The position numbers and the translations under genes are program-made. From contig NZ_CP068083.1 in NCBI RefSeq assembly GCF_016725325.1, positions 930,001 through 994,000 on the forward strand: DNA of 64,000 nucleotides, given 5' to 3'. This document shows, piece after piece, positions 4,259 to 60,923 of the stretch. The notes below the pieces were generated by a model. It was not told where the DNA came from. It was given only the letters and a program-made list of their open reading frames with translations, and ran no database searches. This DNA comes from Sphingobacterium spiritivorum (lineage in GTDB: Bacteria; Bacteroidota; Bacteroidia; Sphingobacteriales; Sphingobacteriaceae). Position 1 is the first letter of the stretch. Each line of letters opens with the position of its first letter.

Positions 4259-4383
4259 CTGCTATTAAATAACTTTTTTCAGCAAAAAAAGATGAAAAAA
4301 TATTTATGCTTTCATTGCTTTTTGTATATTTATAACATCGTTTGAGGATTAATTAAAGAAAACTATAATTATATTAATTAAAA

Positions 4384-4563
4384 ATGGAAAACTACACTAA
4401 ATTAAAAGAGCTGGTAGCTTCAATCGAAGCAGATGCGGACAAATTTTTCAACAACGGAAACGCTGCTGCAGGTACGCGTGTACGTAAAGGTTTACAAGAA
4501 ATCAAAACTTTAGCGCAAGACATCCGTAACGAAGTTACTGCTAAGAAAAACGACGGAAAATAA
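4384..4563 (+). CDS. Histone H1-like DNA-binding protein (Bacteroidota type)
   Basis: This 59-residue ORF starts MENYTKLKELVASIEAD and contains GNAAAGTRVRKGLQEIKTLAQDIR, the signature I associate with the short histone H1-like proteins of Bacteroidota. The protein is an amphipathic helix-turn-helix-like chain with Lys/Arg clusters and no Cys or Trp. It probably binds DNA non-specifically as a nucleoid protein. It stands alone between the S46 peptidase and a strong terminator at 4583-4620, so it is probably a monocistronic, highly expressed gene. The ATG at 4384 follows an A/T-rich leader without a clear Shine-Dalgarno sequence. Confidence 0.85.
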   Translation: MENYTKLKELVASIEADADKFFNNGNAAAGTRVRKGLQEIKTLAQDIRNEVTAKKNDGK

Positions 4564-4582
4564 TTTCAATTTTCGGAGATAG

Positions 4583-4620
4583 AAAATCCTTATCCTTTAC
4601 GGGTAAGGATTTTTTATTTT
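4583..4620 (+). terminator. Rho-independent terminator after the H1-like gene
   Basis: The stem AAATCCTTATCC/GGGTAAGGATTT has a short TTTAC loop and is followed by TTTTATTTT. Confidence 0.85.
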
Positions 4621-4645
4621 AAATGAGTTTGTCTAATTTAATTCT

Positions 4646-4936
4646 ATGGAACGTGCTACATTTGATGCATCGCTTTTGCATCCTAAACCACCCGCAGATT
4701 TTTCGGTTCACCTTCAGTCGCTGTGGTATGATGCTAAAGGAGACTGGCAGACCGCACATGATCTTATAGATCAGTTACACGACCCGGTATCCGCACATAT
4801 ACATGCTTATCTTCACCGCAAAGAAGGAGACAAATGGAATGCCGGCTATTGGTATAACAAAGCAAAACAACCTGTTTTCTCCTCATCTCTGTCAGCAGAA
4901 TGGGAACATTTGTTCGATCTGTACAACGGCAGATAA
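4646..4936 (+). CDS. Conserved hypothetical protein
   Basis: This 96-residue soluble protein has segments LWYDAKGDWQTAHDLI and HAYLHRKEGDKWNAGYWY, followed by an acidic C-terminus (SAEWEHLFDLY). The same pattern (Trp-rich, 'AKGDW.. AH' and 'HRKEGD..NA.YWY') occurs in a widespread but uncharacterised bacterial family, so it is probably a real conserved gene. It has no signal peptide or transmembrane segment. Its helical Trp/Tyr-rich repeats resemble a single TPR-like hairpin, but I would not assign a function. It sits alone between two terminators, after the H1-like gene. Confidence 0.75.
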   Translation: MERATFDASLLHPKPPADFSVHLQSLWYDAKGDWQTAHDLIDQLHDPVSAHIHAYLHRKEGDKWNAGYWYNKAKQPVFSSSLSAEWEHLFDLYNGR

Positions 4937-5025
4937 CGGACTCCATTCTATTGTAACCTTATCTTTCCTGCAAACAAAAGTATATCTTCATTCGTATAGT
5001 AATGGATAACCAATAACTATACGTC

Positions 5026-5715
5026 ATGAAAACCTTGCTTTTTACTCTTATCATTGCGCTATATAGCCTGTCACCTGTATCTGCTCAGCAACCGTCTTTA
5101 GAAGGAGCTTATCTTTCATCAAAGGATGGAACTACAGAACTCTGGTTATTTAAAGATCAATATTGTACCTATACTCAATTCAGTGAAAATAATTTTGTTT
5201 ACACCTGGGGAGGACCTATTCAGGCTGATACTCAGGGAATACAGGTATTAGTAGAATTTAATTCTCAGGATCCTGATAAAGTTGGTAGTAAGCAGTTATT
5301 CAAATCAAAAATGGCCGGAAATACATTAACGCTGAATGAACATACCTATACAAAAGCAGCAGGAAAAGCACAGAATCTGGACGGTTTATGGCGAATCACG
5401 GGTAGAAAAGAAGGAGAAAATATCAACAGCATTAAAAGAGGTGACCGCAAAACCATTAAAATATTGGTAGATGGTTATTTTCAGTGGATCGCTATCAATC
5501 CTGCTCAAAAAGGATTCTACGGAACCGGAGGAGGCAACTACTCTTTTCAGAATAACCAATACACAGAAAAACTGCTATTTTTCTCCAGGGATAATAGCCG
5601 TGTGGGCGCCACCCTTAGCTTCCGGGGAGAGTTAAAAGGTAATGACTGGCATCACAGCGGTAAAAGCTCAAAGGGTGATCCGATCTTTGAGATCTGGAGC
5701 AGAGAATCGCAATAA
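5026..5715 (+). CDS. Secreted protein of unknown function
   Basis: This 229-residue protein has a clear signal peptide (residues 1-20, ending VSAQ). Two similar halves are suggested by LEGAYLSSKDG... (about 25) and LDGLWRITGRKEG (about 118), each beginning a Trp/Tyr-rich beta pattern as in lipocalin-like or DUF-type periplasmic proteins. TYTKAAG and FEIWSRE close the two parts. No catalytic motif is recognised. It is monocistronic, ending 1 nt before a strong bidirectional terminator (5717-5753) shared with the convergent cysM. A role as a periplasmic binding or envelope protein is a guess. Confidence 0.7.
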   Translation: MKTLLFTLIIALYSLSPVSAQQPSLEGAYLSSKDGTTELWLFKDQYCTYTQFSENNFVYTWGGPIQADTQGIQVLVEFNSQDPDKVGSKQLFKSKMAGNTLTLNEHTYTKAAGKAQNLDGLWRITGRKEGENINSIKRGDRKTIKILVDGYFQWIAINPAQKGFYGTGGGNYSFQNNQYTEKLLFFSRDNSRVGATLSFRGELKGNDWHHSGKSSKGDPIFEIWSRESQ

Positions 5716-51601: not shown

Positions 51602-51635
51602 AAAAGGAGTTGCTACTTGTGTAGTAACTCCTTTT
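51602..51635. terminator. Terminator between ansA and folC
   Basis: An imperfect stem AAAAGGAGTT-G-CTAC with its partner and a TTGT loop carries A/T tracts on both sides, serving both convergent genes. Confidence 0.82.
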
Positions 51636-51636
51636 C

Positions 51637-52947
51637 TTATACTTTATTTTCAAGAGCAGTCAAAACCTCTGCCACCACAAAATTACTACCTCCTATAAAA
51701 ACCAAATCCCCTGCCTGATAAGCCTGTTTTGCCACAGTGAACGCCTGCATTACACTGGAGTAAGGTTTTCCCTTCAGACCATAGCTTAAGGCCGCAGCAG
51801 ACAGTTCTTCTGCCGGCATCGCTCTGGGCATATCGGGACTGGAGAAATAATATATGGCTTCTTTCGGAAGTAAAGGCAAGATATGTTGCAGGTCTTTATC
51901 TTTCATCGCTCCCATTACGATATGAAGTCTTTTAAAGGGTGTAAGCAGGATATTCTTAAGAACTTCACGAATACCATCTTCATTATGTCCGGTGTCACAG
52001 ATGATCAACGGATCTGTAGAGATTGTCTGCCACCTTCCCTGCAATCCTGTATATTGCTGAACATGGCTCAGGCCTTCCCGGAGCCGGTCAGAAGGAATAC
52101 TAAAATTTCTCTGATTTAATTCATCAACTACCGCTAAAACACCCACTACATTTTTTAACTGATATGACCCCGTAAGATCAAGATCATATTGTTCTGTCAG
52201 AGAAGTTATTTTGTCAGTGACAGATACCTGCATACCAGAAAGATGCCGGGAAGTAATCGTTGCTTCCAATACATCCGATGCAAACCGGATCGGGGCCTGT
52301 TTTGTCTCAGCGATCTCTTCAAATACCTGTGCTGTACACGGATCTCTTTCAGAAATAACAACCGGGGTATTTGCTTTGATAATGCCAGCCTTCTCCCCTG
52401 CTATTTCCTGCAAGGTATCTCCTAACAGATTCATATGATCCATACCTATATTTGTAATAAGACATAGCTCCGGACGGATAATGTTTGTACTGTCCAGACG
52501 TCCGCCTAATCCTACTTCGATAATGGCGACATCTACCTGAGCTTTTGCAAAGTAATCAAAAGCCATGGCGACCGTCACTTCAAAAAATGAAGGCTGTACT
52601 TTTTCTATAAGAGATTGCTGTGATTCTACGAATTCAATAACATCCTGTTCGGGAATAACTTCTCCATTGACCCGGATACGCTCTCTGAAATCAACTAAAT
52701 GCGGTGACGTATAGAGACCTGTTTTGTATCCGGCTGATGCCAATACCGAAGCCAGCATATGAGACGAGGATCCTTTCCCGTTCGTACCTGCAATATGTAT
52801 AGATTTGAATTTGTCTTGGGGATTGCCTAATGCCTGGCACAGTGCGATGGTATTATTCAGGTCTTTCTTATAGGCAGAAACACCTTCACGGGTAAACATA
52901 GGTAATCGAGTATACAGATACCCGATTACCTCTTTATATGCTTTCAT
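51637..52947 (-). CDS. folC: Bifunctional folylpolyglutamate/dihydrofolate synthase
   Basis: This 436-residue Mur-ligase-like enzyme adds glutamate to folates and makes dihydrofolate. Motifs are GTNGKGSSSH (P-loop, about 54-63), TSPHLVDFRERI, VGLGGRLDSTNI, ITNIGMDHMNLLG and CDTGHNEDGI. Length is normal. It is the last gene of the TPR-barrel-SPOR-ExbB-ExbD-TonB run, 12 nt after tonB; its folate role appears unrelated, so it is probably just a passenger of the operon. Confidence 0.94.
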   Translation of the reverse strand: MKAYKEVIGYLYTRLPMFTREGVSAYKKDLNNTIALCQALGNPQDKFKSIHIAGTNGKGSSSHMLASVLASAGYKTGLYTSPHLVDFRERIRVNGEVIPEQDVIEFVESQQSLIEKVQPSFFEVTVAMAFDYFAKAQVDVAIIEVGLGGRLDSTNIIRPELCLITNIGMDHMNLLGDTLQEIAGEKAGIIKANTPVVISERDPCTAQVFEEIAETKQAPIRFASDVLEATITSRHLSGMQVSVTDKITSLTEQYDLDLTGSYQLKNVVGVLAVVDELNQRNFSIPSDRLREGLSHVQQYTGLQGRWQTISTDPLIICDTGHNEDGIREVLKNILLTPFKRLHIVMGAMKDKDLQHILPLLPKEAIYYFSSPDMPRAMPAEELSAAALSYGLKGKPYSSVMQAFTVAKQAYQAGDLVFIGGSNFVVAEVLTALENKV

Positions 52948-52959
52948 AGCAAATGAAAC

Positions 52960-53781
52960 TTATCTAACTCTGAAGTTGAATACAATAACTCCTGTCTGCG
53001 AATCCGGTGCTTTTTCTAATTCATTCAAACGGGCACCCCGTACAGCTCTTTCACATTTTTCCCACAGGGAGCGGTCAGGCAATGTAGTTCCCTTAACGCC
53101 TGCCCGTGCATATGTAATCGTACCGTTAGGTGCTACACGAATTTCTACTGCAACTTTTCCGGACTGCTGACCTTTGTCATCAATATTTGGTCTTACTACG
53201 AAACGTCTGTTGGCAATCGATAACATCATATTGCCATCCCCTGATCCCCCTTCTCCATAATTCGGTGCCAAAGGATCTCCTAACTTGCTTCCCTGATTAC
53301 CGGGAGTGGATCCGGTACCATCACCAGAGCCTGTTCCGTTATTTTTCTTTCCTTTGTACAGCGCATTCGGGTTGACAGCCGGGGTACTGTTTTTCTTCTC
53401 TGTTGTAGTCTCTGTTGCTTTTACTTTTACAGGTTTCTCTGTCTTGGTAATAGCAGGAGCATCATCTATATCCTGTGTCGCTACAGCATCATCAGAAACC
53501 TGCTGCGTAGGAGTTGGTGTAGGTGTTTCAGTCGGATCAATTTTATCCGGCTTTACATTATTAGCGTTAGGATCCATGGAAGGTTCCTCTACGCTCATAT
53601 AATCATCTCCCATCCCTTCTTCCGAAGTACCGTAGTTGACTATAATACCTCCCATACCAATCTTTGGCAACTCCTTGCTGAACACAATGAAAAAACCTAT
53701 AGCCACTAATATCCCCATAATTATGGAGGATATTCCTAATGCTTTAGGAAGGTTATTTTCTTCTTGAAGATGATAATGCAT
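52960..53781 (-). CDS. TonB-like energy transducer
   Basis: This 273-residue protein has one N-terminal transmembrane helix (about 15-36), then a Pro/Thr/Lys-rich periplasmic linker (ETPTPTPTQQ and repeats, about 75-170). The C-terminal domain (about 205-273) has VEIRVAPNGTITYARAGVKG and ends GVIVFNFRVR, as in the TonB/AgmX-like C-terminal domain of Bacteroidota. It would transmit proton-motive force from ExbB/ExbD (immediately upstream) to an outer-membrane partner, presumably the barrel protein two genes further upstream. The gap to exbD is 75 nt. Confidence 0.85.
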   Translation of the reverse strand: MHYHLQEENNLPKALGISSIIMGILVAIGFFIVFSKELPKIGMGGIIVNYGTSEEGMGDDYMSVEEPSMDPNANNVKPDKIDPTETPTPTPTQQVSDDAVATQDIDDAPAITKTEKPVKVKATETTTEKKNSTPAVNPNALYKGKKNNGTGSGDGTGSTPGNQGSKLGDPLAPNYGEGGSGDGNMMLSIANRRFVVRPNIDDKGQQSGKVAVEIRVAPNGTITYARAGVKGTTLPDRSLWEKCERAVRGARLNELEKAPDSQTGVIVFNFRVR

Positions 53782-53856
53782 GATATAATAAAAATTAAAA
53801 AATCAAAATTAAACAGTCAAAAATCAGGCCCTTTGATCAGATAATATGTAATAATA

Positions 53857-54267
53857 TTATTTATCTTTTCTCGGCTCTGTTGCTAATACTAACTTAATTT
53901 TTAACCTGTTCGCTACATCCATGACAGAAATTACATTCTGGATAGGAACACTGCTGTCTGCATAAAGCATAATAGTCAATTCTTCTCCGGATGCCATTCT
54001 TGATTGTATTAACGATTCCAGACTCTCGTATGGAACTATTTGTTTATCTACATGATACTGCAGATCACTTGTGATAGATACTGTCATGGTTTTTTTAGCC
54101 ACGGACTGTTCTCCCGCACTGGATCTTGGTAAAAGTAATTTCACGACCTGAGGATTAGACACGGCAGAGGCCAACAGAAAGAATAACATCAGGAAAAACA
54201 TGATATCATTCAATGCTGCAGTATGTACCTCGGCAGAAGGTCTGTTCCTTCTATTACGAATATTCAT
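53857..54267 (-). CDS. exbD: ExbD/TolR-type biopolymer transport protein
   Basis: This 136-residue protein has one transmembrane helix (about 18-38) with the proton-conducting Asp in ALNDIMFFLMLFF (about residue 21). The periplasmic domain has the EELTIMLYADSSVPIQNVISVMDVANRLKIKLVLAT-like block, the standard ExbD/TolR core. It pairs with ExbB (gene 31 nt upstream) to form the proton-driven motor of the TonB system. Length is typical for Bacteroidota ExbD. Confidence 0.9.
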   Translation of the reverse strand: MNIRNRRNRPSAEVHTAALNDIMFFLMLFFLLASAVSNPQVVKLLLPRSSAGEQSVAKKTMTVSITSDLQYHVDKQIVPYESLESLIQSRMASGEELTIMLYADSSVPIQNVISVMDVANRLKIKLVLATEPRKDK

Positions 54268-54298
54268 AATTAAATCCTTTTTAAAAGAGCCTTATAGC

Positions 54299-55000
54299 TT
54301 ATGCTCCCGGTTCGTCTAATAAGTCAATAAACTCCACTGCATCCGTTTCCATTCTAAGGATCAGACGCTCTACCATCATGTTAAGCGCATGATACCCGAT
54401 ATATGCAAGGATACCTACAGTCAATCCGGATGCAGAAGAAATCATTTTAACATAAAGACCTCCGGATACCGAACCGATATCAATACCACCTACTGCCTCT
54501 ACATCGCGGAAAATCTGGATTACCCCGAAGATCGTACCTACGAAACCAAGCATCGGTGCAATACCTGCAATAATCCCCAAAATATTGATGTTTTTCTCCA
54601 GTTTAGATACTTCGATCTTACCGATATTTTCAATTGCTCCTTCTATATCTTTGATAGGACGACCTACACGCAAGAGACCTTTCTGCAGCATTCTTGATAG
54701 TGGTGTATTACTGGAACGGCATACCGCTACAGCTGCATCCAGTTTACCGGACATCACATTACTTTTGATTTGTGACATCAATCCGTTATCAAACTTAGAC
54801 GCTTTGCGAATGGTAATATAACGCTCCAAAAAGATAACCAATCCTAAGAAAAACAAAAAGGCAATAGGCCACATAATCCATCCCCCTTTCATCAAAAGCT
54901 GGATCAGATTTGTTTCTTCCTGTGTCGCCATCTGTATAGGTTGCTGTGCTGCCTGACCTAACGAGTCTAATGCTAATGCTGTGTCTTGAATCAATGACAT
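54299..55000 (-). CDS. exbB: ExbB/TolQ-type MotA family proton channel
   Basis: This 233-residue protein has three transmembrane segments (about 32-58, 140-165 and 185-210) and the MotA/TolQ/ExbB core RMLQKGLLRVG-, LGIIAGIAPMLGFVGTIFGVI-like region and AGLTVGILAYIGYHALN-like C-terminal helix. It forms the stator pore with ExbD (next gene). It follows the HU-CCDC81/SPOR protein after 36 nt. Confidence 0.92.
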   Translation of the reverse strand: MSLIQDTALALDSLGQAAQQPIQMATQEETNLIQLLMKGGWIMWPIAFLFFLGLVIFLERYITIRKASKFDNGLMSQIKSNVMSGKLDAAVAVCRSSNTPLSRMLQKGLLRVGRPIKDIEGAIENIGKIEVSKLEKNINILGIIAGIAPMLGFVGTIFGVIQIFRDVEAVGGIDIGSVSGGLYVKMISSASGLTVGILAYIGYHALNMMVERLILRMETDAVEFIDLLDEPGA

Positions 55001-55036
55001 AATGCTATTTAAATATTTAATGTTCTAGTTTTCAGT

Positions 55037-56113
55037 TTAATTCTTTATCCGTTCATAGAAGGCCTGAGGTTCAATCGTCTCCTGAACGTGTTTCAGTTCC
55101 TTCTGTGCCTCTTCAAGTGTAGAAAATGATTTCCATACTACTTTTTTCCATTTCTTGGATTTCTTGCTTTCATGGATATAGACTTGTGTATATCCTTTTT
55201 TATGCATGGCATCTACCTGTTCTTTTGCCATTGTCCATCCTGCATGTGATCCGATAACGATCTGGTATTCATGCCCGGTTTGTGGTTCTTTCGCTCCGGG
55301 ATGAATTTCTACACTATCCTTTGCCGGTACCTCATGAACTGTTGTATCTAACGGTACTAATGACGCCACTGTATCTTTTACCGGAGTCGAAGGAATTGTA
55401 TCTTTCAATGTATCCTGATTTACAACAGGAGCAGGCGTCTGCGGCTTATTATAGTAGGTATCCCAATAGTACAGTCCTCCTATCAGACCAATTGCTATTA
55501 CTGCTGAAATAATATACCAGATGGTGTTACTCGATCTTCGCTCATCTTCAAAAACAAACTCTTCTCTGACCGTATTCACGGGTTCCTGTATTACAGGAGT
55601 TGGCTGCTCTTTCTCTACAGGTACTACCGGTACTGGTATTGCGGGAGGCGTTACCCCGGCTGGTATTATTTCCTGTGGTGGAATAATTTCTTTTTCTAAA
55701 CTTCGGATCTTATCGTTTACTTCCTGTATTGGTTCAAAATGAAATCCGGTAAGATCTAAAGGTTTAAATACATAAGTATTTCCATAGTTGACCAAATATC
55801 CCAGATCATCCAGTTTGGCCTGACCGGACTGCAATAACTCTTCTTTGATCTTGCTAACTTCCGTTTGAACAATAGCCTCGGCCTGATGACGATCTACCTG
55901 TTGTTGCCGCTGCACATAGGTGACAAAGTCATAGCCTGTATCTCCCTGTGTATCCAGTTCCAGATAATTGATAGGCGGTAAAAAAGCATTGCGACTTTGA
56001 TCAAAAGTCGCAGGAGTATGTTTTCGCTTAAAGACACCTATTCCATCCACCTTTACTTCGGTGTGTCTTTTCAGTACATGATTTATGCTTTTTCCTAAAT
56101 TCATCCTTATCAA
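55037..56113 (-). CDS. HU-CCDC81 and SPOR domain membrane protein
   Basis: This 358-residue single-pass protein has two HU-CCDC81-like alpha/beta modules in the cytoplasm (about 1-130, including IGVFKRKHTPATFD and LGYLVNYGNTYVFKPL). A Pro-rich stretch follows, then one transmembrane helix (about 196-217) and a periplasmic C-terminal SPOR domain (about 279-358). SPOR domains bind denuded septal peptidoglycan; HU-like modules may bind DNA or self-associate. The combination is seen mainly in Bacteroidota and would link the cytoplasm to the cell wall. It lies in the TPR-barrel-ExbB-ExbD-TonB operon. Confidence 0.85.
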   Translation of the reverse strand: MIRMNLGKSINHVLKRHTEVKVDGIGVFKRKHTPATFDQSRNAFLPPINYLELDTQGDTGYDFVTYVQRQQQVDRHQAEAIVQTEVSKIKEELLQSGQAKLDDLGYLVNYGNTYVFKPLDLTGFHFEPIQEVNDKIRSLEKEIIPPQEIIPAGVTPPAIPVPVVPVEKEQPTPVIQEPVNTVREEFVFEDERRSSNTIWYIISAVIAIGLIGGLYYWDTYYNKPQTPAPVVNQDTLKDTIPSTPVKDTVASLVPLDTTVHEVPAKDSVEIHPGAKEPQTGHEYQIVIGSHAGWTMAKEQVDAMHKKGYTQVYIHESKKSKKWKKVVWKSFSTLEEAQKELKHVQETIEPQAFYERIKN

Positions 56114-56144
56114 TATCGTTGGGACGCAAAGTTACTATTTTAAA

Positions 56145-57875
56145 TTAAAATGAGTAATTAAGCCCTCCCAGTATATTAAATCCTAAACGCGGATAGTACT
56201 GGTAGCGTTGGTATTCTTTATTGAATATATTATTTGCTTTCACAAAGATCCCTAAATGTTTAGTTGCGCGGTACTCTGCTCCGGCATTCAGGTCAAAGAA
56301 AGATGGTAATGTTACTTTCTTATATCCTTGAGAAATATCTACTGTACTTCCATTGACGGTGTATGTATATTCACGGGCATATGTATCTCCCTGGAACAAT
56401 GCCTCTGCATCGATATAAAGTTTTTCAGAGATGTTGAAACGTGCGTTTGCTGCCAGTTTCATTTTAGGCATATGCCATGCTTCTTCTTCCTGTTGCATAG
56501 TGTACTGATCAATATTCAGACGACCACCTAAATTGACCACATCCGATAAACGAACATTGATCTCTCCCTGTAAGCCGAAATATTTAGCAGCATCTTCGCC
56601 CAATCCGTCGTAAACAAGATCAAAACGGTAAGGTGTTTCTCTGTTATTGACAAATAAAGGAAGTCCCTCGATCTGTTTATACATTACCTGTACCTTATAG
56701 CCAAATGTTGCTCCGGCATTTCCTTTAATACCCCCAAAGAAATTCAGTCTTTCTATAGTATTGATCATGCTCAGATCAGGGCTCAGGTAAGGGTTCTGAT
56801 TGGTGAAGGAGCGCAAAGATGCTTTTTTGACATTTCCATTTACCCCCCCGAACAAATGAATATATTCAGGAACTAAGGAGAAGTCTACTTCTGCAGAAGG
56901 GAAGACATTGAACCGGGAAGAATCTCCGAATTCTGACACTAAATTAGCACCCAATGTAATCACATAATTATCGCCTTTGAAGCTGATGTAAGGATTGATA
57001 CTGGCAACAGAGTTCTTTGTTTTTCCATCTACATTATCTGTACCGTTAATGCTATTTACATCTACACTAAGATTGGCTCCGATATTGAATGCGCGCATTC
57101 TTTTGTTCAGGTAACCGGATAATGCGATAGAGTTTTCCTTAGCGGCAAACTGATCTTTGTATGTATAAGCATCTGCTTTTGCGGAGTAGCTCAGTGCATT
57201 TTCATTATTCGCATCGTAGTTGCTGGTCAGCTCTCCGGTGAAATAGATATCATTGAAAGCCTGTTTTTCCGGATCCGGATTCAGTGATACTCCGTTTACA
57301 TCCAATGGATTTCCGTAAAAGCGGGTCGCATAACGATTATACCCCACTAATCCGTCAACGGTAAACGCATCATACACACGTCTGCCAAATACACCGACTT
57401 CTTGTTTCGAAAAGCGTTGGTTTTCAATATCACCCTTTTGGCTCAGATGCTTCACAAAACCACCTATTCTTACATTTTCATATTGATCATAGGAGAAATA
57501 ACCCTCCCCAAGAATAGTATTAAAATTACCAATACCTAATTTCACATAATTGCTGGTCTGATCATTAATCTGAGAAAAAGGAGTTTCCTTAACATCCAGT
57601 TTGTAAAGACCGGTATTGATGTCCAATTTTTTATCTACCACATTTCCGTATGTTAATTTTGGCATGTAGCTTCTTTTGTTGGTCATGTCAGGACTACGGC
57701 GGATTTTCACCGCATCTGCAAGAATAGGCTTATAATCTCGCACAACATCAAACGAATCAATCGTTACTGGTTTTTTGTCTGTAGGCTCTTGCTGAGCAAA
57801 TCCATTAAAACCTGCGCCTAATAACAAGGTTACTACGGCACATTTCTTAAACACAGTATTTTGCAACTTCATCAT
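56145..57875 (-). CDS. TonB-dependent-receptor-like outer-membrane barrel, plug domain not seen
   Basis: This 576-residue protein has a signal peptide (about 1-28) and a VTIDSFDVVRDYKPILADAVKI segment near residues 37-58. It then forms repeated beta strands ending KEYQRYQYYPRLGFNILGGLNYSF, with the aromatic C-terminus of OM barrels. NIFNKEYQRY is a typical TonB-receptor strand. The N-terminal plug domain (about 120 residues) that TonB receptors carry is not recognisable. It follows the TPR gene after 6 nt. It may be an OM channel or assembly platform energised by the downstream ExbB-ExbD-TonB. Confidence 0.82.
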   Translation of the reverse strand: MMKLQNTVFKKCAVVTLLLGAGFNGFAQQEPTDKKPVTIDSFDVVRDYKPILADAVKIRRSPDMTNKRSYMPKLTYGNVVDKKLDINTGLYKLDVKETPFSQINDQTSNYVKLGIGNFNTILGEGYFSYDQYENVRIGGFVKHLSQKGDIENQRFSKQEVGVFGRRVYDAFTVDGLVGYNRYATRFYGNPLDVNGVSLNPDPEKQAFNDIYFTGELTSNYDANNENALSYSAKADAYTYKDQFAAKENSIALSGYLNKRMRAFNIGANLSVDVNSINGTDNVDGKTKNSVASINPYISFKGDNYVITLGANLVSEFGDSSRFNVFPSAEVDFSLVPEYIHLFGGVNGNVKKASLRSFTNQNPYLSPDLSMINTIERLNFFGGIKGNAGATFGYKVQVMYKQIEGLPLFVNNRETPYRFDLVYDGLGEDAAKYFGLQGEINVRLSDVVNLGGRLNIDQYTMQQEEEAWHMPKMKLAANARFNISEKLYIDAEALFQGDTYAREYTYTVNGSTVDISQGYKKVTLPSFFDLNAGAEYRATKHLGIFVKANNIFNKEYQRYQYYPRLGFNILGGLNYSF

Positions 57876-57881
57876 TATTTC

Positions 57882-60800
57882 CTATTTCTTTGTTGTATTT
57901 AATTTTTGTAATTTTTCTTTAGCAGTTTTCAGGATACCATCTTCCTTATTTTCGTAGTTATCGATGATACTCTCTAAAGTTGATTTTGCCTGGAATGCAT
58001 CTCCCTTACCGGTATATGCATCTGCCATCAAAATAAATCCTTTTGCTACCCAATAGTCATACGAAGAAAACGTATCTGAAATATCAAAAGCAGATTTAAT
58101 TGCTTTATCGTATTCTTTCGCTTTCAGCTGCTGCTCAGCCACTAAGTATCTCGCTTCTGCTCCTGTTGCTGTCTTACTTTTCAACGCAGCAAGATTCAGC
58201 TCTTTAGTTGCTTCAGCAGGCTTGCTTGTTGCCAGGTATGCTTTTGCAGCATAAAGGTGTGCTGTACCTATTTCTTCCTCCGAAGACTTTTCATAGTTTT
58301 TGACTAATGTAGCATAGTTCAATGTCTCCTTGTAATCTCCGATATTGAAATAACTTACCAAAAGATTATTGATTGCGTACGCATAATTAGACTTGTATTC
58401 TGAAGTCAGTTCCAGTTTTTTCAATTGCTGTACAGCTTCATTGTATTGTTTTTGCTTCAGGTACAACTGAGAAACACTGACTAATGCACGTTCTGTATAA
58501 GCACTTGTCCAGTCATTCAGAATAATGTTGTAATCGTGTAGTGCTTCTTGATTTTTACCCAAAGCTGCGTTACTCTCTGCACGGATAAATCGAGCATATT
58601 TTTCCTGAATAGGTTTCGGGAATTTATCAAAATATGCATTCACTGCTTCTACCGCTCCCTGATAATTACCTCTGGAGAATAGTGTAGTTGCCGTAGAGAA
58701 TGCGCGGGAATCTTGTTCTGATGTCGAAAGATCTCCGATATTTGTACCTGTTGCATAACGGATATATCCTGTTGCATCTCCTTTATCCAGGTAAATATTC
58801 TCAATCGAACGCATTGCTTGCTTAGCCTCGTCTGTAGTAGAATACTGATCTACCACACGTTGGAACGTTTTTAAAGCAGCATCATTGTTATCCTGATTAT
58901 ACTGTACCAGACCGATAGTCACTAAAGCACGTGGAACGTAGCTGCTTCTAGGGTATTTTTCCACCATTGCTTGCAGTCCTGAAATCGCCTGATCATACTG
59001 TCCCAATGTAAAGTAGGTGTACGGAATCTCAAAAGCCACATCATCTGCATAGTTGGACTTCGGATACTTTTGTACTACAGATTGCAGGGTAGCAATCTTA
59101 CCGCTGCTATTTCCTTGTAATCCCTGAATAACACCACGCTGGAATAAAGCATAATCCTGACTTTGTGCTTTGGAATTGATCAGCTTGTCATACTCAGTCA
59201 TGGCACGACCGTAATTCTTGAGTGAAAAGTACGAATCTGCCAGACGGGCAATAGCATCATTACGGGTATTAAGTTCGATCCCCTCTTTGCCGCCCATGGA
59301 AAGAAAACGTTCAAAGTAGTTTGCCGATGTATTGTAGTTTTCATTTCTGAAAGCTGCATATGCTAACGCATAATTTGCATAATTATAGACATCTGTATTT
59401 CTGGCTGCAGGAAGACTCAGAAATTTATTAAAATTAGCGGTTGCCTCTTTATATTTTCTGACCTCATACATCGCCTCTGCTTTCCAGTAAATAGCCAATG
59501 CATTGATCTCTTCATCATAACGGTTAGCTTCAGAACGCATAAACATGGATATTGCATTTTCAAATGCACGCTCATTATAGTATTCCAGACCGCGGTAATA
59601 CGTTACTTTCTGATAAGCCGCATTAGCTTCTTTACCTCTTTTCTTAACCGACTCCAATACATCCACTGCAGCCCGGTAATTCTTCGTACTCAACAGAATC
59701 TCGGCATACAATGTCTGTGCTTCTTCATTACGGACATTGTTTGGATAGGTCTTCATGTATTCCTGAATAGCATCCAAAGCGACCTGGTGAAACTCCAGTT
59801 CATAAGACAACTTAGCATAATTGAAAAGTCCTTCTTCCTTCAGTTGAGGATCAAAGTCTAATTTCGATCCACGGAAAAAAGCATTACGCGCACTTTGTTT
59901 ATTTCCCTTTTTCAGGAAGGCATCACCTAATGTGATCATGGCACTTTGGTAATAAGCATCCGGTTCGGTCATTTTTTCGAGCTCCGTGATTGCTTTATCA
60001 TAATCACCCAGCTTGTAATTTATATAACCGATCTGGTAACTGTCCTGATTATTCTGTGTTTTGCCTTGATCCTGAGCCTGGAATTTATCGTAATATTCTT
60101 TCGATTTTTTCAGATCGCCTTTGATAAAGTACGTCGCTGCAATAACACGGAACATATCTGTTTCGTTATCTTGTTTCGTTGTCTGCAGGATTGGCAGCGC
60201 ATAGTTCAGTACATCATCATATCGCTTGTCCAGAAAGTATAGCGCTGTGATATAATACGGGTAACTGCTTTCATAGGTTTTTGATCCCTGAAGGCGTTCA
60301 AATTCATTAAGTGCAGTTTTATATTCCGCATCCAGATAGCACAAATATGCGTAGTAATAGATAGATGCTTCCTGATATTCACTTTTTTGGTCTTTCAGTG
60401 ATTCAAATACAGGTTTTGCAGAAGTATAATCTTCTGTCATAAACCGGGAATATGCTAATTTAAAACGGTACTCTGTATTTTCGGCACCGGCCAGATTTTT
60501 ACCATCAATCTTAGTAAACCATTCGATGGCTTTTTTATAGTCTTTTTTCGCATAATACGAACGGCCTATCTGGAAATATGCCGCTTTAGAATTAGGACTT
60601 GCCGGGTAATCTTTGATATACTTCAAAAATCTCCCTTCAGCATCTGAATCTCCAAGCTCCAGCGCACAGATTGCCTGGTAGTAGCGTACATTCTCTTTCA
60701 GCAGCGTCAACTCTTCATTTTCATCTAATTGCAAAGTAGATTTGGTCCTGATCTCTTCCACTTTATCAAACTGTTTGGATGCTGAACTGAATTTTCCTCT

Positions 60801-60923
60801 CTCAAAAAGCTCCATACCGGACTTGAAGGCTTTATTCAGATCTTGCCAGGCCGTTTGCTGCGCAAAAACCGGCGTGGTCATTAAACTCAGAGCAATACCT
60901 ACTTTGTAAATATTTTTATTCAT
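57882..60923 (-). CDS. Giant periplasmic TPR-repeat protein
   Basis: This 1013-residue protein has a signal peptide (residues 1-22, ending VFAQQ). The rest is tandem tetratricopeptide-type repeats with YYAKKDYKKAIEWF, LGDYDKAITELEKM, YYNERAFENAIS and LGQYDQAISGLQAM as clear units, so it is almost all alpha-solenoid. It is a protein-interaction scaffold in the periplasm or at the inner face of the outer membrane. It is the first gene of the run that continues barrel, HU-CCDC81/SPOR, ExbB, ExbD, TonB, folC. Confidence 0.85.
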   Translation of the reverse strand: MNKNIYKVGIALSLMTTPVFAQQTAWQDLNKAFKSGMELFERGKFSSASKQFDKVEEIRTKSTLQLDENEELTLLKENVRYYQAICALELGDSDAEGRFLKYIKDYPASPNSKAAYFQIGRSYYAKKDYKKAIEWFTKIDGKNLAGAENTEYRFKLAYSRFMTEDYTSAKPVFESLKDQKSEYQEASIYYYAYLCYLDAEYKTALNEFERLQGSKTYESSYPYYITALYFLDKRYDDVLNYALPILQTTKQDNETDMFRVIAATYFIKGDLKKSKEYYDKFQAQDQGKTQNNQDSYQIGYINYKLGDYDKAITELEKMTEPDAYYQSAMITLGDAFLKKGNKQSARNAFFRGSKLDFDPQLKEEGLFNYAKLSYELEFHQVALDAIQEYMKTYPNNVRNEEAQTLYAEILLSTKNYRAAVDVLESVKKRGKEANAAYQKVTYYRGLEYYNERAFENAISMFMRSEANRYDEEINALAIYWKAEAMYEVRKYKEATANFNKFLSLPAARNTDVYNYANYALAYAAFRNENYNTSANYFERFLSMGGKEGIELNTRNDAIARLADSYFSLKNYGRAMTEYDKLINSKAQSQDYALFQRGVIQGLQGNSSGKIATLQSVVQKYPKSNYADDVAFEIPYTYFTLGQYDQAISGLQAMVEKYPRSSYVPRALVTIGLVQYNQDNNDAALKTFQRVVDQYSTTDEAKQAMRSIENIYLDKGDATGYIRYATGTNIGDLSTSEQDSRAFSTATTLFSRGNYQGAVEAVNAYFDKFPKPIQEKYARFIRAESNAALGKNQEALHDYNIILNDWTSAYTERALVSVSQLYLKQKQYNEAVQQLKKLELTSEYKSNYAYAINNLLVSYFNIGDYKETLNYATLVKNYEKSSEEEIGTAHLYAAKAYLATSKPAEATKELNLAALKSKTATGAEARYLVAEQQLKAKEYDKAIKSAFDISDTFSSYDYWVAKGFILMADAYTGKGDAFQAKSTLESIIDNYENKEDGILKTAKEKLQKLNTTKK

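Follow-up and report, generated by a model that had tools for sequence, protein, structure and literature searches.

How Bacteroidota attach the outer membrane to the cell wall at division without Tol-Pal is the question raised by a locus of Sphingobacterium spiritivorum, found in a window of 64,000 nucleotides (the whole stretch of DNA analysed, positions 930001-994000 of a 5.14-Mb single-contig genome). Bacteroidetes are reported to have no identifiable tol-pal loci, and further stabilising systems are expected there (PMC12204202; this and the other papers cited are drawn on through excerpts). In 5' to 3' order the locus encodes a giant tetratricopeptide repeat (TPR) protein, an outer-membrane barrel, an HU-CCDC81/SPOR-type protein, ExbB, ExbD, a TonB-like protein and FolC. 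From these genes we tentatively predict an analogue of Tol-Pal, driven by the proton-motive force, that would join the outer membrane to the septal wall in most Bacteroidota. These genes, found in most genomes sampled, would allow the question to be tested in a laboratory strain.

All seven open reading frames were recovered, consecutive on the minus strand from 60923 to 51637 with gaps of 6, 31, 36, 31, 75 and 12 nt, in agreement with an earlier note on this DNA that described seven same-strand genes 6-75 nt apart. Pfam assigned TPR repeats, HU-CCDC81_bac_2, MotA_ExbB, ExbD and FolC. The note had called the whole an envelope set; six of the genes fit that description, and since the seventh product, FolC, is an enzyme, we speak of six envelope genes plus folC. 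Three further claims of the note held, namely a TPR solenoid of about 1000 residues, a barrel without visible plug (by prediction) and an ExbB-ExbD-TonB set.

The barrel protein has no Pfam match of any kind. Its closest named relative, with 89% identity, is from Sphingobacterium, and several relatives carry the database name TonB-dependent receptor. AlphaFold2 predicts a TonB-receptor-type fold over residues 108-576 with the plug absent, and the structural neighbours of this model include BtuB, which is nearest, and FhuA. A normal plug domain, which together with a substrate-importer phenotype the earlier note had regarded as fatal to its proposal, was not found in the barrel, nor did Pfam detect one in 29 members of the family. 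The 86 residues ahead of the barrel domain (residues 22-107) have a predicted local distance difference test (pLDDT) score below 50, and structural alignments with known barrels begin inside this stretch, at residues 57-72. A TonB-box-like motif near the mature N-terminus recurs across families, the pattern occurring in 80% of 113 barrels versus 51% in shuffles (maximum of 200 shuffles, 64%). Because of this motif the barrel seems built to be pulled. We ruled out that it is BamG, the extra barrel of the Bacteroidota β-barrel assembly machinery (BAM), which is a 14-strand FadL homologue (PMC12578637).

ExbB and ExbD belong to the correct superfamilies by Pfam, with NCBIfam scores of 60 bits for TolQ (cut-off 221) and 38 bits for TolR (cut-off 127.3). 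The transmembrane aspartate of ExbD is kept in 9/9 aligned copies. The TonB-like protein of the window has no Pfam match of its own; TonB_C is matched by 12 of the 18 members of its family, and a comparison of the family profile with the PDB recovers TonB C-terminal domains, at a best E of 2.1e-5. Its AlphaFold2 model (mean pLDDT 58.6) shows a transmembrane helix at residues 11-34 joined by a disordered linker to a C-terminal domain at residues 194-270 with block pLDDT of 79-90. The 15 best Foldseek matches of this domain were all TonB, FusB or TolA domains, with a best E of 3.3e-3 and none passing E 0.001. Profile and model together predict a TonB-type C-terminal domain in the transducer. The genome of S. 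spiritivorum holds two ExbB and four ExbD genes, the second ExbB gene adjoining a pair of ExbD genes and another gene that by eye looks TonB-like. An ExbD-family gene without nearby ExbB (G000:C1:1723341-1723769, L179) lies downstream of guanylate-kinase-like and nicotinate-nucleotide-adenylyltransferase-like genes, as judged by eye.

The third protein had been described in the earlier note as an HU-CCDC81/SPOR protein that crosses from cytoplasm to peptidoglycan. The HU domain is supported (HU-CCDC81_bac_2 above the Pfam cut-off, HU-CCDC81_bac_1 just below), as is a transmembrane-like stretch at residues 196-216. SPOR falls below the Pfam threshold in the window copy and is seen at family level, where the profile matches SPOR-bearing DedD, a sporulation amidase and FtsN. 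In 36 homologues chosen by their HU domain, HU-CCDC81_bac_2 was present in 36/36 and SPOR in 28/36; in barrel-linked homologues (47 scanned of 66) SPOR was present in 38/47 and HU-CCDC81_bac_2 in 23/47. SPOR is the commoner part of this family and the HU domain is optional, which weakens the HU domain as the key link. Our literature search returned no match for HU-CCDC81 together with SPOR in the papers that it covered. The gene probably starts at ATG 56104, 9 nt after TTG 56113. The gap ahead of it (56144-56114) holds TAACTTTG, which fits TAnnTTTG, the motif that we take to be the Bacteroidota -7 box, and is a possible internal promoter.

The TPR protein has a signal-peptide-like start and matches NCBIfam tol_pal_ybgF with 159 bits over 5 stretches, above the YbgF cut-off; it also passes the BamD/YfiO cut-off with 99.7 bits. 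We searched a phylum sample of 198 genomes and a class sample of 295 genomes, with families labelled f1, f2 and so on. The TPR profile (A6) at E<=1e-60 found relatives in 142/198 phylum genomes, and a profile search found the protein in 279/295 class genomes. Two matches per genome were seen in 2 phylum and 7 class genomes, at most four (phylum) or two (class) candidates being scored in each; second matches lie at G002:C1:1170328-1172544 and in G206 and G246 (f48). Named records that contain this protein come from Ignavibacteria-type, Kryptoniota, Chlorobi and Bacteroidetes assemblies; the scan behind them gave 24 loci from 65 stretches and is uninformative on other phyla because its queries were close Ignavibacteria-type sequences.

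We then counted same-strand neighbours within 6 kb of the barrel gene in the 92 genomes, from 40 families, that have a barrel locus. The TPR gene was found in 70 of them, upstream of the barrel at a median distance of 4 nt, followed by SPOR-type (66), ExbB (48), TonB (47), ExbD (42) and FolC (12) genes; the figures for SPOR and the motor genes are inflated because half of the 120 loci fetched were picked by HU matches. The 22 genomes without linked TPR gene belong to f22 (20) and f20 (2). A motor-type ExbB gene lies away from the barrel in 15 genomes, with FolC beside the motor in seven of these, one of the seven rearranged. FolC is probably a frequent motor neighbour outside the machine, and we set it aside as a component, being an enzyme though one that often accompanies the motor. 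Judged by these sequences, the gene set recurs in most Bacteroidota genomes sampled, as parts. Scattered neighbours in related genomes would, by the earlier note, speak against its proposal: the gene order recurs in many families, but in several the TPR-barrel pair and the motor are separate, and the exact membership is that of the window's own family and f8. Five loci (L164, L152, L158, L161 and L153) carry TPR-barrel-(SPOR)-TonB without motor genes and, nearby, a gene of about 445 aa that by eye resembles a nucleotide-sugar dehydrogenase.

The distribution of TolB was followed in the same phylum sample. PF04052 (TolB) has no match in the S. spiritivorum genome and matches 9/198 genomes, five of them f16 (frames of 443-476 aa) and four others (frames of 326-1093 aa). 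A TolB profile built from five f16 proteins gave 620-856 bits in 43/198 genomes, all f16, the next best score being 132 bits; its best E in the S. spiritivorum genome was 2.6e-14 versus <1e-186 in the 43. TolB and the TPR protein occur together in 0/198 genomes, and 13 genomes (f11, f14, f18, f27, f36 and f39) have neither. One f16 locus (L172) has TolQ, TolR, TolB, Pal and YbgF above the NCBIfam cut-offs and a protein without match in the TolA position. By eye, TolB clusters are also visible in four more f16 loci, some of them truncated by contig ends, and no TPR or SPOR gene was seen in L166, the sole f16 locus with a barrel match that was fetched. We infer that f16 is Chlorobi-type, because tol-pal is reported to be present in Chlorobi (PMC8871954, PMC7391070). 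Pfam found no Pal among the seven proteins of the S. spiritivorum locus. L172 also has two Pal-like small proteins in tandem (4343-5380), of which the one scanned passes the Pal cut-off.

Division genes occur near parts of the set. In 10/78 TPR loci an FtsE-like gene is found no more than 2 kb from the TPR gene, on the opposite strand every time, a lower bound because these genes were found by a Walker-motif pattern. FtsE was the best model for all six of the ten that were scanned (222-244 bits). FtsK lies beside the barrel cluster in two of the four f22 loci inspected (L070 and L082), and ExbB-ExbD is followed in one locus of f2 by an ABC ATPase similar to the FtsE-like proteins.

A mechanism can be sketched from these parts. 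ExbB-ExbD would energise the TonB-like protein, whose C-terminal domain would bind the N-terminal box of the barrel. With no plug to pull out, the force would fall on the barrel and thereby on the outer membrane. The TPR protein would serve as scaffold in the periplasm, much like a larger CpoB, the SPOR protein would bring the machine to denuded septal peptidoglycan, and the FtsE-like and FtsK neighbours would reflect a division role. The proton-motive force would in this way draw an outer-membrane anchor toward the septal wall during constriction; we hold this, tentatively, to be the most likely of the readings considered here. A more far-reaching version, which we hold possible and rather doubtful, is that this is a distinct division force machine of Bacteroidota and has replaced Tol-Pal in most of the phylum. 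In it the motor would drive a TonB protein that takes hold of the tail of an empty TonB-receptor-type barrel and thereby drags the outer membrane itself inward at the septum, with the SPOR protein as guide and the giant TPR protein as scaffold. If true, a TonB-receptor barrel that lost its plug but kept a box-like tail would show that Ton pulling can act on the membrane and not on import. The earlier note had likewise proposed a Ton-powered trans-envelope machine, perhaps coordinating outer-membrane assembly, secretion or constriction with the cell wall. The recurring order, the plugless barrel, the TonB-type transducer, the SPOR protein, the FtsE-like neighbour in some families and the absence of TolB fit such a machine linked to constriction; the proposal is supported in part, as the set splits in several families and the HU domain is optional. 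Our literature search, with most subscription papers outside its coverage, returned no title or abstract describing this gene set.

Several observations weigh against a dedicated division machine. The transmembrane histidine of TolA/TonB, described as essential for motor contact (PMC12204202), is missing from the window TonB-like protein and several relatives and found in others such as L082, L060, L071 and L079; because of this we term the set Ton-type and not canonical Ton. The cohesion of the set is also incomplete. Besides the optional HU domain, the barrel was in the same stretch in 39/60 loci picked by HU and not in 21/60, the TPR gene adjoins other genes in six loci from f22 (five) and f20 (one), and in f21, f23 and f31 the locus retains TonB, the only ExbB genes of these families being low-scoring. 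The FtsE-like scores are all under the FtsE cut-off of 264.85, and FtsK is not beside the barrel in the f22 loci L072 and L075. The wall could be tethered otherwise, since the S. spiritivorum genome has 13 OmpA-domain matches, of which five lie in 632-660-aa frames, and PorE is proposed as an outer-membrane-wall tether (PMC12204202). Finally, the complementarity of TolB and TPR protein sets one clade against the rest and perhaps reflects a single event, and hidden Markov models placed Bacteroidetes among phyla with almost complete Tol-Pal (PMC8871954), a count not borne out by our TolB searches in this sample.

A serious rival, if an unlikely one, is a Ton-gated barrel channel that exports or assembles outer-membrane material (lipoprotein, lipid, polysaccharide or protein), with the TPR protein as chaperone or substrate dock and TonB pulling the low-confidence N-terminus from the lumen. 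An empty TonB-receptor-type barrel would be a large hole in need of a gate, and the 86 low-confidence residues, within which the structural alignments begin, could fill it. The BamD/YfiO score of the TPR protein is consistent with such a role, as are the lysylphosphatidylglycerol-synthase-transmembrane gene and the 213-aa gene without Pfam match that adjoin the barrel in L082. However, no recurring cargo gene was noticed by eye (uncounted), the SPOR protein and the FtsE-like neighbour speak for a role in division, and the extra barrel known from Bacteroidota BAM is the FadL homologue BamG. We do not claim LolA beside the barrel in f22, where a 213-221-aa gene was so named by eye and Pfam gave no match in two.

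It is considerably less probable that the Ton-type motor moves a TPR-barrel complex for motility, surface coat or wall remodelling and not for division, as in the Agl-Glt/Nfs systems of Myxococcus, where the Glt machinery comprises GltD, a TPR protein of 1191 aa, GltG with its TonB domain and the ExbB/ExbD-type AglRQS (PMC3169522). In that description GltH has 209 aa and GltG carries an FHA domain, and the near-universal TPR protein of the class sample (279/295) suggests a housekeeping role. An ordinary TonB-dependent nutrient importer with a degenerate plug would account for the BtuB/FhuA-like fold and the receptor names, but we regard it as highly improbable given that Pfam detects no plug in the family, that the N-terminus is of low confidence, that a TPR partner recurs and that a separate ExbB-ExbD-ExbD set exists elsewhere in the genome.

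Features of the S. spiritivorum locus (window coordinates)
Feature	Position	Strand	Basis
TPR protein, 1013 aa	57882..60923	-	Pfam/NCBIfam matches, profile search; periplasmic location presumed
Predicted plugless TonB-receptor-type barrel, 576 aa	56145..57875	-	alignment, AlphaFold2, structure comparison
TonB-box-like motif, barrel residues 40-48	57732..57758	-	alignment, N-termini comparison, motif test; TonB binding putative
Barrel domain, residues 108-576	56148..57554	-	AlphaFold2
HU-CCDC81/transmembrane/SPOR-like protein, 358 aa from TTG	55037..56113	-	Pfam, family scans
SPOR-like C-terminal region (approximate)	55070..55273	-	family profile
ExbB/TolQ-type motor subunit, 233 aa	54299..55000	-	Pfam, NCBIfam, genome search
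ExbD/TolR-type motor subunit, 136 aa, with transmembrane Asp	53857..54267	-	Pfam, alignment
TonB-like transducer, 273 aa; C-terminal domain nt 53202-52972	52960..53781	-	profile, AlphaFold2, Foldseek
FolC, 436 aa	51637..52947	-	Pfam, NCBIfam
Terminator-like stem, 15 pairs	51602..51635	.	between convergent folC and asparaginase genes

The terminator with which the earlier note ended the operon corresponds to the 15-pair stem between convergent genes, listed on the plus strand only. By count the stem is no proof of a terminator, because the stretch has 9 terminator-like sites versus 6.6 +/- 3.0 in shuffles; promoter-like sites number 29 versus 30.8.

The proposed Tol-Pal analogue shares with Tol-Pal itself the superfamilies of its TolQ/ExbB- and TolR/ExbD-type motor subunits, which score below the TolQ and TolR cut-offs, a TonB/TolA-type transducer and a TPR protein above the YbgF cut-off. 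It differs in that the gene set is without TolB or Pal, its outer-membrane end would be an integral barrel and a SPOR protein is added; the window TPR protein is about 4 times the CpoB model length, and f16, which has tol-pal, is without it. With Ton systems and their TonB-dependent transporters it has in common ExbB, ExbD, a TonB-type C-terminal domain, a TonB-receptor-type barrel and a TonB-box-like motif, whereas the plug and the window transmembrane histidine are absent, TPR and SPOR partners recur and the locus is separate from the genome's ExbB-ExbD-ExbD set. Motor, TonB-domain protein, large TPR protein and outer-membrane barrel are also found in Myxococcus Agl-Glt/Nfs, which, compared by description only, has small barrels, an FHA domain and two ExbD-type subunits of its own (PMC3169522). 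Motor-TPR-vWA clusters likewise place a TPR gene beside a TolQ/TolR-type motor, with a vWA transducer in place of the TonB domain and, in the excerpts of PMC12204202, no such barrel described. Finally, Bacteroidota BAM, too, is an outer-membrane complex particular to the phylum and has an additional barrel; that barrel is the 14-stranded BamG, and the excerpts of PMC12578637 and PMC12611786 describe no Ton motor, whereas the locus considered here pairs its barrel with one.

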